Positions 7,982 through 44,030 of a stretch of 64,000 bases of DNA are shown piece after piece. Both the position numbers and the translations under genes were made by a program. Source of the DNA: an uncultured Ruminococcus sp. (GTDB taxonomy: Bacteria > Bacillota > Clostridia > Oscillospirales > Acutalibacteraceae); NCBI GenBank assembly GCA_902777275.1, contig CACYTI010000015.1, forward strand, positions 21,975 through 85,974, read 5' to 3'. The notes beneath the pieces are model-generated. The model worked only from the letters and a program-made list of their open reading frames with translations. It ran no database searches and was not told the DNA's origin. Each line of letters starts with the position of its first letter. Positions within the stretch are counted from its first letter, which is position 1.

Positions 7982-8020
7982 TTTGCAGTGGGGCGCACCC
8001 GCGTGCGCGCCAGTGAACCG
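7982..8020. repeat. 39-bp direct repeat, left copy (REP-type palindrome)
   Basis: Identical over 39 bp to 9651-9689. The core is a GC-rich imperfect palindrome (GGCGCACCCGCGTGCGCGCC), related to the REP sequences at 28714-28739 and inside the RAYT gene. It forms the left border of the phage remnant: the frame of the head-protein fragment is open only from base 8017, right at this border. Confidence 0.9.
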
Positions 8021-8052: not shown

Positions 8053-8673
8053 GTGAGCTTCGGGAAGCCCAAAACCTATACTGAAAGTGGAATCAGCGGT
8101 AAAAGACTACACAATACAAGTGAAAACAAGGTTGATTTGGAATATATAAAATCAAGAGAATACCATGATAAATTTAAAACTATTACAAATAATCAAGCTG
8201 TCAATGAACAAATCTACAAACAATCAAAGGCTTTTTTGACACATAGGAATGGTACTAATTACGAAAATATTTGTTTAATTGATAACAAAACGGGTAGAAT
8301 CGTTGCACTGCAAAATGATTCTCAAAATGATTTTGACGTTGGTGATTATAATAAAAAGATGAAAGATGCAATAAAAAATAATCCACCGTATTCTTTGATA
8401 TCTTTACATAATCACCCTACCAATAACCCCCCAACAGGAAGCGACATAGTTTCTAATGGATCCAACAAATATCAACTTAGTGTTGTAGTAACACACAACG
8501 GAAAGGTTTTTTCATATAAAGCAGGGAACAAGCCGTTCACAGCATATTCTTTTGGTATGAGGGTTGACAAATACCGAGGAAATAAATATAATTTAAGTGA
8601 ATATGAAGCTATTATTCAAACTTTAAAAGACTATACTGAACAGTATGGAATTGAATGGAGAGAATTTGTATGA
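8053..8673 (+). CDS. Phage head-protein tail with JAMM/MPN metalloprotease-like domain (5' truncated)
   Basis: A 206-residue product, strongly AT-rich compared with its surroundings. Residues 71-131 carry a JAMM-type zinc-peptidase signature: Glu71, the HNHP motif at 119-122, then Thr128 and Asp131. Such domains occur at the C-terminus of phage minor head (morphogenesis) proteins, and the first residues (DVSFGKPKTY) look like the junction with a head protein. The frame extends upstream past GTG 8053 only to the 39-bp repeat, so the head part has been lost. GTG 8053 has a weak AGGAAGG-like RBS. Its stop overlaps the start of the next small gene (ATGA). Function unknown: it could cleave a protein or isopeptide bond, or act as a toxin-like effector. 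Whether it is still expressed is uncertain. Confidence 0.7.
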   Translation: MSFGKPKTYTESGISGKRLHNTSENKVDLEYIKSREYHDKFKTITNNQAVNEQIYKQSKAFLTHRNGTNYENICLIDNKTGRIVALQNDSQNDFDVGDYNKKMKDAIKNNPPYSLISLHNHPTNNPPTGSDIVSNGSNKYQLSVVVTHNGKVFSYKAGNKPFTAYSFGMRVDKYRGNKYNLSEYEAIIQTLKDYTEQYGIEWREFV

Positions 8674-9054: not shown

Positions 9055-9615
9055 ATGAAAAATATACACGAAATCTTAAAGAGCGTCGGGCTTGAAGTAC
9101 CCGCAGACAAAAAAGCCGATTTCGACAAAGCGGTGCTTGAAAACTACAAAACCGCCGCCGAAACCGAAAAGCTCAGAACCGCGCGCGACAACTACAAGAC
9201 CCGGCTCGACACGGCGACCGAACAGCTCAAAGCGTTTGAAGGTGTGAATGTGGACGACCTGCAGGGCAAAATCACAACGCTGAATCAACAGCTTGCCGAT
9301 CAGAAAGCCGATTTTGAAAAGCAGCTCGCCGACCGAGACTTTGATGACCTTCTCAACGGCGCTATTTCCGGCAGCAAGGCGAAGAACGTCAAGGCGGTGC
9401 GCGCTCTGCTCGACCTTGAAGCTATAAAGGCGAGCAAGAACCAGTCCGCCGACATCGAAGCCGCGCTCAAAAAGGTCAAAGAAGAAAACGATTATCTTTT
9501 CACCTCCGACGAACCTATCGACAACCCCGGTTTCACAGGGGGAACGGGCGGCAAACAGGGCGCAAATGAAGATATGATGCGCTCTATTATGGGCTTGCCG
9601 CCCGAAAAATCATAA
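9055..9615 (+). CDS. Phage scaffold/minor structural protein (GP20 family)
   Basis: A 186-residue, highly charged coiled-coil protein of the phage GP20 scaffold type, which directs capsid assembly in tailed phages. The central heptad-rich helix (residues 35-110) with many Lys/Glu/Asp, and the disordered C-terminus with a Gly-rich turn (FTGGTGGKQG) followed by a terminal helix (MMRSIMGLPP), are typical. An AAAGGATAAAG RBS precedes ATG 9055. In complete prophages this gene sits between minor head proteins and the major capsid gene. Here the upstream partner is the JAMM tail and the downstream gene survives only as its first codons. GC is close to the chromosome, unlike the JAMM gene. Confidence 0.85.
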   Translation: MKNIHEILKSVGLEVPADKKADFDKAVLENYKTAAETEKLRTARDNYKTRLDTATEQLKAFEGVNVDDLQGKITTLNQQLADQKADFEKQLADRDFDDLLNGAISGSKAKNVKAVRALLDLEAIKASKNQSADIEAALKKVKEENDYLFTSDEPIDNPGFTGGTGGKQGANEDMMRSIMGLPPEKS

Positions 9616-9639: not shown

Positions 9640-9834
9640 ATGGCTAACAGTTTGCAGTGGGGCGCACCCGCGTGCGCGCCAGTGAACCGAGGCTGTCTTC
9701 ATGTCCGTTTGTCGATGTCATTCCACACTCCGCGCTTCCCGGCTGTTCAACAGAAATCACAAAAAAATCAGCAAAAAAAAGCATTTTTTGACATTTCACA
9801 ATTTGGGTTGACATCGGGCAAAAAAGTGTTATAA
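9640..9834 (+). pseudogene. Start of a phage (probably capsid) gene cut off by the REP repeat
   Basis: AGAAAGAAGG precedes ATG 9640, and the first codons read MANS before the frame runs into the 39-bp repeat at 9651. Everything after that is chromosomal or REP sequence with no protein-like character, although a frame stays open to 9834. The position directly after a GP20 scaffold is where a major capsid gene is normally found, so this is read as a capsid gene truncated after its first codons. Confidence 0.5.
9651..9689. repeat. 39-bp direct repeat, right copy (REP-type palindrome)
   Basis: Perfect copy of 7982-8020, closing the phage remnant on the right. It lies inside what was the next phage gene. 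Confidence 0.9.
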
Positions 9835-28385: not shown

Positions 28386-28621
28386 CCCGTTGCCACGGGA
28401 GGGCAGTTCGCGCTTCAAACGTTTGACAAAAACTTTACCGTTATTCACGCGTTATGACGCGGCGTTTATGGAAGGGTATCTTTTAACGACGCTGTCCAAA
28501 GCCGCCGAAAGCGCCCGCCGGCGCACGCGTTAAATGTTTCGTTGTTCGGAAACGTTTTGACAGGGGCAAGGCTTTTCCCTGCGAATTTGCTTTGAAACGG
28601 AAATAATACGTTTCAATACGA

Positions 28622-28709
28622 TTGTAGGGGAGCCCCTTGCGGGCTCCCTCGCACCGACATTATTTTTCCGTCCGATTGTCGATAGAAAACAAAATGTATG
28701 ATTCAGCGC
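28622..28709. repeat. About 88-bp dispersed repeat, copy 1
   Basis: Begins with a GTAGGGGAGCCC...GGGCTCCC hairpin and continues with GTCCGATTGTCGATAGAAAA to GATTCAGCGC. Copy 2 is at 28777-28864 with scattered differences. Confidence 0.8.
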
Positions 28710-28713
28710 TCCC

Positions 28714-28739
28714 GGGCGCACACGCGGGTGCGCCCCTAC
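28714..28739. repeat. REP palindrome, identical to one inside the RAYT gene
   Basis: Twenty-six bases with GGGCGCAC...GTGCGCCC arms. Identical to 43790-43815 and, in inverse orientation, one mismatch from 43635-43660. Confidence 0.85.
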
Positions 28740-28776
28740 GAATTGGTTTGATTCAGTTCCAAACGTTTAAAAATGG

Positions 28777-28864
28777 TTGTAGGGGAGCCCCTTGCGGGCT
28801 CCCTCACACCGGCGTTGTTTTCACGTCCGATTGTCGATAGAAAACAAAACGTTTGATTCAGCGC
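28777..28864. repeat. About 88-bp dispersed repeat, copy 2
   Basis: Direct repeat of 28622-28709. It is followed by a further dispersed segment (28865-28905) that has a diverged copy at 32069-32113. The rest of 28386-28940 shows no gene. Confidence 0.8.
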
Positions 28865-42117: not shown

Positions 42118-43494
42118 ATGCAGCTTTGGAAAGGACGCTTCAAAAAGGAGCTTTCAAAAACCACCAACGATTTCAACAGCTCAATTTCCTTCGACAGCCG
42201 GATGTACCGCGAGGACATTGAGGGGAGCATAGCCCACGCGACAATGTTGGGAAAATGCGGGATTATCGGCGAGGACAGCAGCGCCGAGATAATAAAAGGT
42301 CTGCGCGGTATTTTAGCCGACATTGATTCGGGCAAGCTCACGATAGACCCCGAGGCTGAGGACATCCACACCTTTATCGAGGGAGAGCTTACAAAGCGTA
42401 TCGGCGACAACGGCAAGCGCCTGCACACCTCGCGCAGCCGCAACGACCAGGTCGCGCTCGATATAAAGCTGTATCTCAAAAAAGAGGTCAAGGCGGTCAA
42501 GGCGCAGGTCGTTGAGCTTATCAAAGTGATCGCTGACAAGGCGGAGCGATACAGCGAGACCGTAATGCCCGGCTATACCCACCTGCAGCGCGCACAGCCC
42601 ATTGTTTTCGGGCATCATCTTTTAGCCTACGCCGAAATGCTGCTCAGAGATGTTTCAAGACTCGACGACTGCTTTAAGCGCATGGACGAAATGCCGCTCG
42701 GCTCCTGCGCCCTTGCGGGAACGACCTATCCGATAGACAGAACCGTCACCGCAGGGCTGCTCGGCTTTGAAAGAATAACAAACAACTCGCTCGACGGCGT
42801 TTCCGACCGCGACTTCTGCATTGAATTTGCCTCGGTGCTGTCGATCATAATGGTTCACCTCAGCCGCTTCTGCGAGGAGATAATAATGTGGTGCAGCTGG
42901 GAGTTCAAGTTCATCGAGCTTGACGACGCCTTCTCCACAGGCTCCTCGATCATGCCGCAGAAAAAGAACCCCGACATAGCCGAGTTAGTGCGCGGCAAGA
43001 GCGGCAGGGTTTTCGGCGACACAATGACCCTGCTGACCGTGATGAAGGGAATCGCCCTCGCCTATAATAAGGATATGCAGGAGGACAAGGAAGCGATATT
43101 CGACGCGGTTGACACGGTTAAAATGTGCCTGACCGCCTTCACCCCGATGCTCGACACAATGCGCGTGCTTCCCCAAAATATGAGAAAAGCGGCGGCGGGC
43201 GGTTTCATCAACGCCACCGACTGCGCCGACTGGCTCACAAAGAACGGTGTGCCGTTCCGCGACGCTTACAAGGCGACGGGCGAGCTTGTTGCAAGGTGTA
43301 TCGAATTGGGGACCGATTTGGAGAGCCTTCCCCTTGAAGAGTACAAGGCGGTATGCGACGTGTTCACCGACGACGTATACAACGCCATTTCCCTTGAAAA
43401 ATGCGTTTCGCAAAGAACCGCGTTCGGCGGCCCCGCGCCCGGTTTGGTAAAGGCGCAGGCGCAGCGCGTTAAGGATATCGCGGAAAAGTTGTAA
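42118..43494 (+). CDS. argH: Argininosuccinate lyase
   Basis: Splits argininosuccinate into arginine and fumarate. The 458 residues belong to the fumarase/aspartase superfamily: HTSRSRNDQVALD, GYTHLQRAQPI with the catalytic region, and the signature SSIMPQKKNPDIAEL. The tetramer-forming helical core is complete. The RBS is ACGAGGT before ATG 42118. A RAYT gene begins only 5 bp past its stop, separating it from argC. Confidence 0.97.
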   Translation: MQLWKGRFKKELSKTTNDFNSSISFDSRMYREDIEGSIAHATMLGKCGIIGEDSSAEIIKGLRGILADIDSGKLTIDPEAEDIHTFIEGELTKRIGDNGKRLHTSRSRNDQVALDIKLYLKKEVKAVKAQVVELIKVIADKAERYSETVMPGYTHLQRAQPIVFGHHLLAYAEMLLRDVSRLDDCFKRMDEMPLGSCALAGTTYPIDRTVTAGLLGFERITNNSLDGVSDRDFCIEFASVLSIIMVHLSRFCEEIIMWCSWEFKFIELDDAFSTGSSIMPQKKNPDIAELVRGKSGRVFGDTMTLLTVMKGIALAYNKDMQEDKEAIFDAVDTVKMCLTAFTPMLDTMRVLPQNMRKAAAGGFINATDCADWLTKNGVPFRDAYKATGELVARCIELGTDLESLPLEEYKAVCDVFTDDVYNAISLEKCVSQRTAFGGPAPGLVKAQAQRVKDIAEKL

Positions 43495-43499
43495 ATAAT

Positions 43500-44030
43500 A
43501 TGGAAAACAGCGAATCATCTCAAAAACGCCGAAAACAAATTCGGTTGCAAAATTACGATTACAGTCAGAACGGCGCATACTACGTGACGATTTGCACACA
43601 CAACAGAAAAAATCTCTTCGGCAGAGTGTCATTCGTAGGGGCGCACCCGTGTGTGCGCCCGAGTGTCGCAGGAGTGATGGTAAAGGAAAAGCTGTTGTCG
43701 CTTGAGCAAAAGTTTAATGATATTGAAATAGATTATTCATGCGTTATGCCAAATCACTTGCATTTTATTTTATTCAAACATAGTGCTCAGGGCGCACACG
43801 CGGGTGCGCCCCTACAAGAAATGGTCAAGTGGTATAAAACTCAGACGACAAACGAGTATATAAAAATGGTTAAACAATCTGTTTTACCGCCTTTTGATAA
43901 GCACATTTGGCAGCGCGGTTATTACGAACACGTTATCAGATGCGAAAGGGATTTGTACGAAATAAGAAAATATATTGAAGAAAATCCTGCTAAATGGTTT
44001 TTCGACAAGTATTATAACGCAAAGGATTGA
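43500..44030 (+). CDS. REP-associated tyrosine transposase (RAYT) carrying REP palindromes in frame
   Basis: A Y1/HUH-type DNA nuclease of the IS200/RAYT group, 176 residues. The opening RLQNYDYSQNGAYYVTICTHNRKNLFG and the HUH motif MPNHLHFILF are diagnostic; the C-terminus has WQRGYYEHVIRCERDLYEIRKYIEENP. RAYTs are thought to spread REP palindromes. Here two GTAGGGGCGCACCC-type REPs are embedded in the coding sequence at 43635-43660 (encoding GAHPCVRP) and 43790-43815 (encoding GAHAGAP), in opposite orientation, without breaking the frame. The gene sits between argH and argC, 5 bp from each. Its codons are more AT-rich than those of the arg genes, suggesting transfer. Whether the protein stays active with these insertions is unknown. 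Confidence 0.92.
   Translation: MENSESSQKRRKQIRLQNYDYSQNGAYYVTICTHNRKNLFGRVSFVGAHPCVRPSVAGVMVKEKLLSLEQKFNDIEIDYSCVMPNHLHFILFKHSAQGAHAGAPLQEMVKWYKTQTTNEYIKMVKQSVLPPFDKHIWQRGYYEHVIRCERDLYEIRKYIEENPAKWFFDKYYNAKD
43635..43660. repeat. REP palindrome inside the RAYT gene (copy A)
   Basis: GTAGGGGCGCACCC...GTGTGCGCCC. The reverse complement differs from the 26-bp copy B at one base. Confidence 0.85.
43790..43815. repeat. REP palindrome inside the RAYT gene (copy B)
   Basis: GGGCGCACACG...GTGCGCCCCTAC, identical to the intergenic copy at 28714-28739 and inverted relative to copy A. Confidence 0.85.

Follow-up and report, generated by a model that had tools for sequence, protein, structure and literature searches.

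A REP-associated tyrosine transposase between argH and argC

The stretch of DNA that was analysed, 64,000 nt in length and called the window here, contains an open reading frame of 176 amino acids between argH and argC that holds two short palindromic REP sequences. The relevant features, with positions counted from the first nucleotide of the window, are:

42118-43494, plus strand: argH, the upstream neighbour (named from its sequence)
43500-44030, plus strand: RAYT/TnpAREP gene, 176 aa, between argH and argC (Pfam Y1_Tnp, NCBIfam, AlphaFold, Foldseek)
43635-43660, plus strand: REP at site 1, in frame, coding for V46-P54 (in a predicted beta-hairpin, its turn and its second strand, residues 49-54)
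43755-43763, plus strand: HUH motif His86-Leu87-His88, between both REPs (neither His varies in an alignment of 70 sequences that includes the window protein)
43790-43815, minus strand: REP at site 2, in frame, coding for about G98-L105 (the loop from the HUH strand, 86-93, to the helix starting at 105)
43971-43973, plus strand: presumed catalytic Tyr158 in YIEENP (invariant in the same 70 sequences; assigned by comparison with PMC6006769)
44036-45070, plus strand: argC, the downstream neighbour (named from its sequence)
28714-28739, minus strand: intergenic REP, identical in sequence to the site-2 REP
28624-28648, plus strand: REP whose sequence equals that of the site-1 REP in this genome's second RAYT (G000:C20, locus L002)
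28779-28803, plus strand: second copy of the L002-type REP

The frame at 43500-44030 begins with ATG, has no internal stop and, as its coordinates confirm, fits between its neighbours with 5 nt to spare on each side. Its product scores 31.7 bits against Pfam Y1_Tnp (cut-off 23) and 63.3 bits against NCBIfam NF047646, REP_Tyr_transpos, which is under the cut-off of 80; REP_Tyr_transpos is the closest NCBIfam model because the next family, transpos_IS200, reaches only 22.3 bits (cut-off 55). The AlphaFold model (mean pLDDT 91.3, input alignment of 70 sequences) was matched by Foldseek to IS200/IS605 TnpA proteins and to the TnpAREP-REP complex 4er8, which was also the single, weak match (E 0.87) in a sequence search of solved structures. 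The protein therefore has the Y1 HUH fold of a RAYT (REP-associated tyrosine transposase), with the HUH motif and a C-terminal Tyr, and its genome contains many dispersed REPs in which a GTAG tag leads directly into a stem-loop; the frame is a RAYT. The high copy number of IS200/IS605 elements was not found, as its own genome holds only the window RAYT itself and one 38% relative. By its signature the protein appears closest to the subclass-2.4 or group-4 type, with which it shares the HUH/Y1 fold, the N before HUH, WQ, the YI--NP signature and in-frame REPs; compared with the NH[IFV]H, WQ and YIxNNP of subclass 2.4 (PMC6006769, Table 1), its WQ fits and its NHLH and YIEENP are each off at one position. 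The available text of Quentin 2018 (PMC6006769) equates subclass 2.4 of TnpAREP with RAYT group 4 of Bertels 2017.

The original prediction placed two 26-nt REPs of opposite orientation and without a stop within this frame, at 43635-43660 and 43790-43815, where both are present, and sequence comparison agrees that the second is identical to the intergenic copy at 28714-28739. Each folds as GTAG followed by a perfect 8-bp stem and a 6-nt loop. With a related palindrome pattern, 5 sites of the window match, each on both strands, which makes 10 matches where 0.02 are expected. Across the 2.59-Mb genome, the pattern GTAGGGGCGCAC-N6-GTGCGCCC has at least 47 exact copies among the matches listed, and 58 + 55 matches at up to three mismatches, some sites counting on both strands; the reversed-pattern control has none in the same genome. 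The match to intergenic copies, on whose genome-wide enrichment the prediction depended, is thus enriched. A second REP type, that of locus L002, yields 8 + 10 matches in the genome at up to three mismatches. Two of its copies and one REP of the window-RAYT type make up a composite repeat at 28608-28864, which overlaps a 102-nt unit that occurs twice (88% identical).

The two REPs had also been said to add about eight codons each. This figure fits a REP length of 26 nt, but the site-1 REP overlays a pre-existing beta-hairpin. The spacing from C32 to G58 is 25 residues in the window RAYT, most commonly 21 (24/58) in genes without a detected site-1 REP and 27 (median) in the 101 genes with one, so the net gain at site 1 is about 4-6 residues. 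The idea that this genome commonly has REPs well within long frames was rejected, since only 3 of 30 sampled REPs could be in a long ORF, 30-60 codons from one end.

The polarity of the internal pair is REPIN-like, with GTAG outward at both ends, and one recognisable REP is therefore present on each DNA strand. REPINs, as Bertels and Rainey reportedly described them in 2011, consist of two REPs of inverted polarity with GTAG outward. The window pair resembles them in being inverted with GTAG outward and differs in its "spacer", which is 129 nt of coding sequence with the HUH motif. The dimers of this genome among the matches listed are inverted REPs with spacers of 64-66 nt; these are unlike the 129-nt RAYT segment by eye, and a derivation of the dispersed REPINs from that segment was discarded.

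A RAYT lies between argH and argC in the window and in six other genomes (L074, L075, L076, L077, L079 and L033/L078, the last two loci having given the same protein), and six of these seven RAYTs contain both internal REPs. In the seventh, L079, no internal REP was detected and four REPs occupy the gap of about 190 nt between RAYT and argC. The internal stems read GCGCAC in the window, L075 and L076, and GCGGAC in L074 and L033; L077 has one stem of each kind. The L074 genome (G043) has GCGGAC at both arms in 20 of the 25 matches listed, the internal pair included; in the window and L076 genomes GCGCAC is mixed with GCGAAC among the matches listed; the seven matches in the L077 genome are six GCGCAC and one GCGGAC, again with the internal pair included; and the L075, L078 and L079 genomes have at least 3, 23 and 24 matches, respectively. 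Across six orthologs (15 pairs), third codon positions agree in 223/250 comparisons (89%) within the REPs and in 1086/2250 (48%) elsewhere, so that constraint or homogenisation acts at the DNA level.

Internal hairpins in the wider RAYT family

Profile matches comprised 215 ORFs, 163 of them full length (beginning no later than model position 12 and reaching at least position 140), and removal of one duplicate left 162 genes: 161 RAYT-like genes and one of control type (L228, also among the 30 controls below). Two remnants without the HUH segment (L128, L130) and one gene with a masked run are included. Because the profile was built from relatives of the window RAYT and the loci are its best matches, distant RAYT groups are under-sampled. 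Tagged hairpins were defined by a GTRG tag, a stem of at least 7 with at most one mismatch and a loop of 3-12. Such hairpins lie inside the coding sequence of 144/162 genes (115/131 clusters at 70% identity and 37/44 at 50%), compared with a mean of 15 genes (maximum 19) in 20 synonymous shuffles and 8 in codon-order shuffles. None was found in 30 low-scoring Y1 control genes from the same genome set, hand-picked at 22-36 bits (28 of 192-344 aa and two of 141 aa).

The 266 hairpin matches fall at two preferred sites, which are the two loops that flank the HUH strand: 102 at site 1, 152 at site 2 and 12 elsewhere, with seven double-footed hairpins (all at site 2) counted on both strands. The double-footed form is described in the available text of Quentin 2018 (PMC6006769). 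Orientation is plus in 102/102 at site 1; at site 2 it is minus in 135/152 and plus in 17. By gene, 96 have site 1 plus with site 2 minus, 39 have site 2 minus alone, 5 have site 1 alone and 22 have neither; the site-2 REPs are read in three phases (107, 23 and 5). It was considered whether stop codons alone set the orientation, and this was rejected, as no fewer frames are open in the reverse complements of site-1 REPs: all three are open in 90/101, versus at most two on the plus strand. Among 18 genes from records not titled Bacillota or Clostridia (one titled only "bacterium"), 16 have internal hairpins, and 6 of the 7 double-footed hairpins belong to these 18; the two Desulfuromonadales genes with the site-1/site-2 layout (L037, L044) belong to a single MAG and may be mis-binned. 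Two loci carry multiplied units. At site 2 of L039, three copies of GTAGCGGCGAACTGAGTTCGCC, 51 nt apart, form a tandem REP array translated as protein within the RAYT frame; at site 1, L138 has two REP-like units and its close relative L139 one, without loss of the frame.

The two REPs of a gene match each other. The 96 genes with both sites filled have 47 distinct stem starts, and of the nine bases after GTAG, 8.41 agree on average between site 1 and site 2 of one gene, versus 4.97 after shuffling between genes (maximum 5.5 in 2000 shuffles); in clusters at 50% protein identity the values are 8.29 and 5.03. Where the two stems of a gene differ (41 positions in 28 genes), 39/41 differences leave both hairpins paired, a figure somewhat inflated since the detection rule, with its limit of one mismatch per stem, favours paired stems. 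A tree built without the REP columns gave 48 sister pairs, 25 of them with both sites filled in both genes. Among these 25, changes of at least two bases affect both REPs in 5, site 2 only in 2, site 1 only in 0 and neither in 18 (Fisher 4e-4). Shared ancestry could explain part of the within-gene matching, given the 18/25 sister pairs unchanged (at the level of two or more bases) at either site.

Hairpins inside and outside the gene are complementary. A tagged hairpin within 250 nt flanks 16/91 genes with both internal REPs versus 49/63 with fewer (Fisher 5e-14; 8 genes with short flanks omitted), or 14/69 versus 45/56 at 70% clusters, with shuffled flanks at 3.3%. For 37 genes with site 2 only, the flanking hairpins are upstream plus in 21, upstream minus in 12, downstream minus in 7 and downstream plus in 11, so that their polarity is only partly REPIN-like. 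No internal REP was detected in 18/162 genes, three of which also have no tagged hairpin within 500 nt: L036, the remnant L130, in which the HUH segment is missing, and the control-type L228.

Over their aligned bases L035 and L036 are about 94% identical; at site 2, L035 has a clean in-frame REPIN of 72 bp that L036 lacks, and CT|AC is one among equivalent placements of its junction. L036 has no hairpin by the detection rule; imperfect REP-like stretches at its start and just past its stop are seen in the alignment. CT is a cleavage dinucleotide reported for TnpAREP of other groups in the available text of PMC8266576. The expectation that REP inserts would vary in presence among related RAYTs with the frame kept was borne out by these alignments, with none detected inside L079 or L036 and one or more present in L035; they are not a fixed part of the RAYT fold, as they would be had the original prediction been wrong on this point. 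In a further pair, L133 has both internal REPs, and its sister L135, in which no internal hairpin was detected, has several REPs of that type immediately upstream. Joint movement of the site-1/site-2 pair was not seen, and the one candidate considered, L241, is a REP cluster. Movement of the HUH segment between the REPs as a unit was rejected, since the single candidate pursued, in G072, proved to be a cluster of REPs with a translation like that of the RAYT.

Copies of the internal REPs elsewhere in the genomes were sampled in 50-100 kb pieces from 16 genomes (35 genes). Internal REPs have 0.83 copies per 100 kb in their own genome versus 0.22 under permuted genomes (maximum 0.68 of 1000), an excess that is small and above all 1000 permutations. 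In the sampled pieces, an outside copy was absent for 22/35 genes, and the total of tagged hairpins was higher than that of the reversed-sequence control for only 5/16 genomes. Whole-genome counts of one REP type (n = 11) range from 91 (G012) down to 2 (G216, G329), with 0 in G340, whose stem differs from the pattern; a second type ranges over five genomes from 27 (G456) to 2 (G458). The sole matches in G216 (exact pattern) and, by coordinates, in G458 (up to two mismatches) are the internal pair. With almost no other copies in these two genomes, a matched internal pair needs no thriving REP population.

Interpretation of the internal REP pair

We propose, with a probability of roughly 0.6, that the window RAYT carries an inverted pair of its cognate REPs, kept in cis and built into its coding sequence in a REPIN-like arrangement. 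Judged from sequence, the two internal REPs probably match the palindrome that this RAYT recognises. Many relatives likewise hold different palindromes, which suggests that such genes keep their own target built in. Random insertion accounts less well than a cis-acting unit for a matched inverted pair that most of the collected members hold inside the frame, and for the hairpins that adjoin the gene in most of the remainder. In mechanistic terms, the internal REPs would be substrates of the RAYT protein, which would recognise them as hairpins in single-stranded DNA; REPs would enter or leave the frame through cleavage at CT; and the pair would be retained since the REP-RAYT unit would profit from cognate REPs in cis, perhaps as a seed copy carried along with the gene, as a site by which the protein limits its own gene, or as both. 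A stronger form, in which the RAYT frame doubles as its own REPIN and selection keeps a matched inverted cognate pair, renewed jointly as the REP type changes, even where other copies are nearly absent, is put forward tentatively, at somewhat less than even odds. Gene and substrate would then be inseparable, and the protein could act on or regulate its own gene.

The original prediction, that REPs of this lineage are tolerated as coding inserts, stands as regards the RAYT, the REPs and their tolerance within coding sequence, but is too weak for the same two sites, fixed orientation and matched sequences found here. Pure tolerance would have REPs land in or near the gene of their mover and survive only as in-frame insertions in surface loops, the palindromes themselves having no role. 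It draws on the suggestion of Quentin 2018 (PMC6006769) that such insertions have a small effect on protein activity, on the gain or loss of a whole REPIN between L035 and L036, and on REPs known within other genes, as the available text of PMC3733652 has it. We nevertheless consider it unlikely, as site 1 is always plus even though the reverse complement has more open frames (all three in 90/101), and as matched pairs with paired stem changes, conserved third positions within REPs and the inside/outside complementarity of hairpins all speak against palindromes without a role. Less probable again is a view in which the fold requires the peptides encoded at these sites and REP likeness is secondary: site 1 does form a confidently predicted beta-hairpin (pLDDT block means 96-98), yet the peptides vary widely at the same site, site-2 REPs use three phases (107, 23, 5) and members without a detected internal REP exist (18/162); the conserved third positions largely refute it, and it is very hard to credit.

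A role in RNA was also raised, with the REP pair forming a long mRNA hairpin that controls the RAYT or the arg operon transcript. The RNA fold predicted in silico does use a long helix between site 1 and site 2 (z -6.2), and in the window 5 nt separate the RAYT from argH on one side and from argC on the other, the same genes flanking it in six relatives. However, 39/41 stem differences preserve the local hairpins and break cross-pairing at those positions, and the mRNA strand, owing to the opposite polarity, shows only one of the two in REP form. One recognisable REP per strand, as in REPINs, speaks for recognition of DNA over RNA, and the single-stranded DNA that TnpAREP reportedly binds is REP rather than iREP (PMC8266576, available text). 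An RNA hairpin acting on the arg mRNA is therefore not favoured, and we regard it as improbable, though less so than a requirement of the fold.

The preferred reading, a cognate REP pair kept in cis, has several published relatives. In-frame REPs that do not break the frame are published for subclass 2.4 genes, generally between HuH and Y (Quentin 2018, PMC6006769). The present pattern goes further than what the available text of that paper describes, adding a REP site before HuH, fixed opposite polarity, within-gene matching, hairpin-preserving changes, third-position constraint and inside/outside complementarity, part of which may appear in its Figure S10. The REPtrons of E. coli, Stenotrophomonas and Marinomonas, as set out in the available parts of PMC8266576 and PMC3733652, share a RAYT with cognate GTAG-tagged REPs in cis; there the REPs flank the RAYT, whereas here they lie inside the frame, with intergenic gaps of 5 nt. 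Palindromic repeats kept in frame are also shared with the palindromic elements of Rickettsia and with other intragenic REPs, but these occur in varied unrelated genes according to the available text of PMC3733652, in contrast to the gene of a presumed REP-processing enzyme with two recurrent sites. A literature search by title and start of abstract found no paper on matched REP pairs inside RAYT genes. A built-in matched pair offers a direct, testable link between enzyme and substrate, and if the proposal is true, the cognate REP can be predicted from the RAYT gene alone. REPs cannot copy themselves without a RAYT, and their persistence is modelled in PMC8049555.

The window also contains repeats of another kind. 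An exact 39-bp direct repeat with a palindromic core occurs at 7982-8020 and 9651-9689. The two copies are 1669 bp apart and enclose ORFs 8053-8673 and 9055-9615. Going by its sequence, the latter may encode a phage scaffold-type protein, and the region is possibly a phage remnant.
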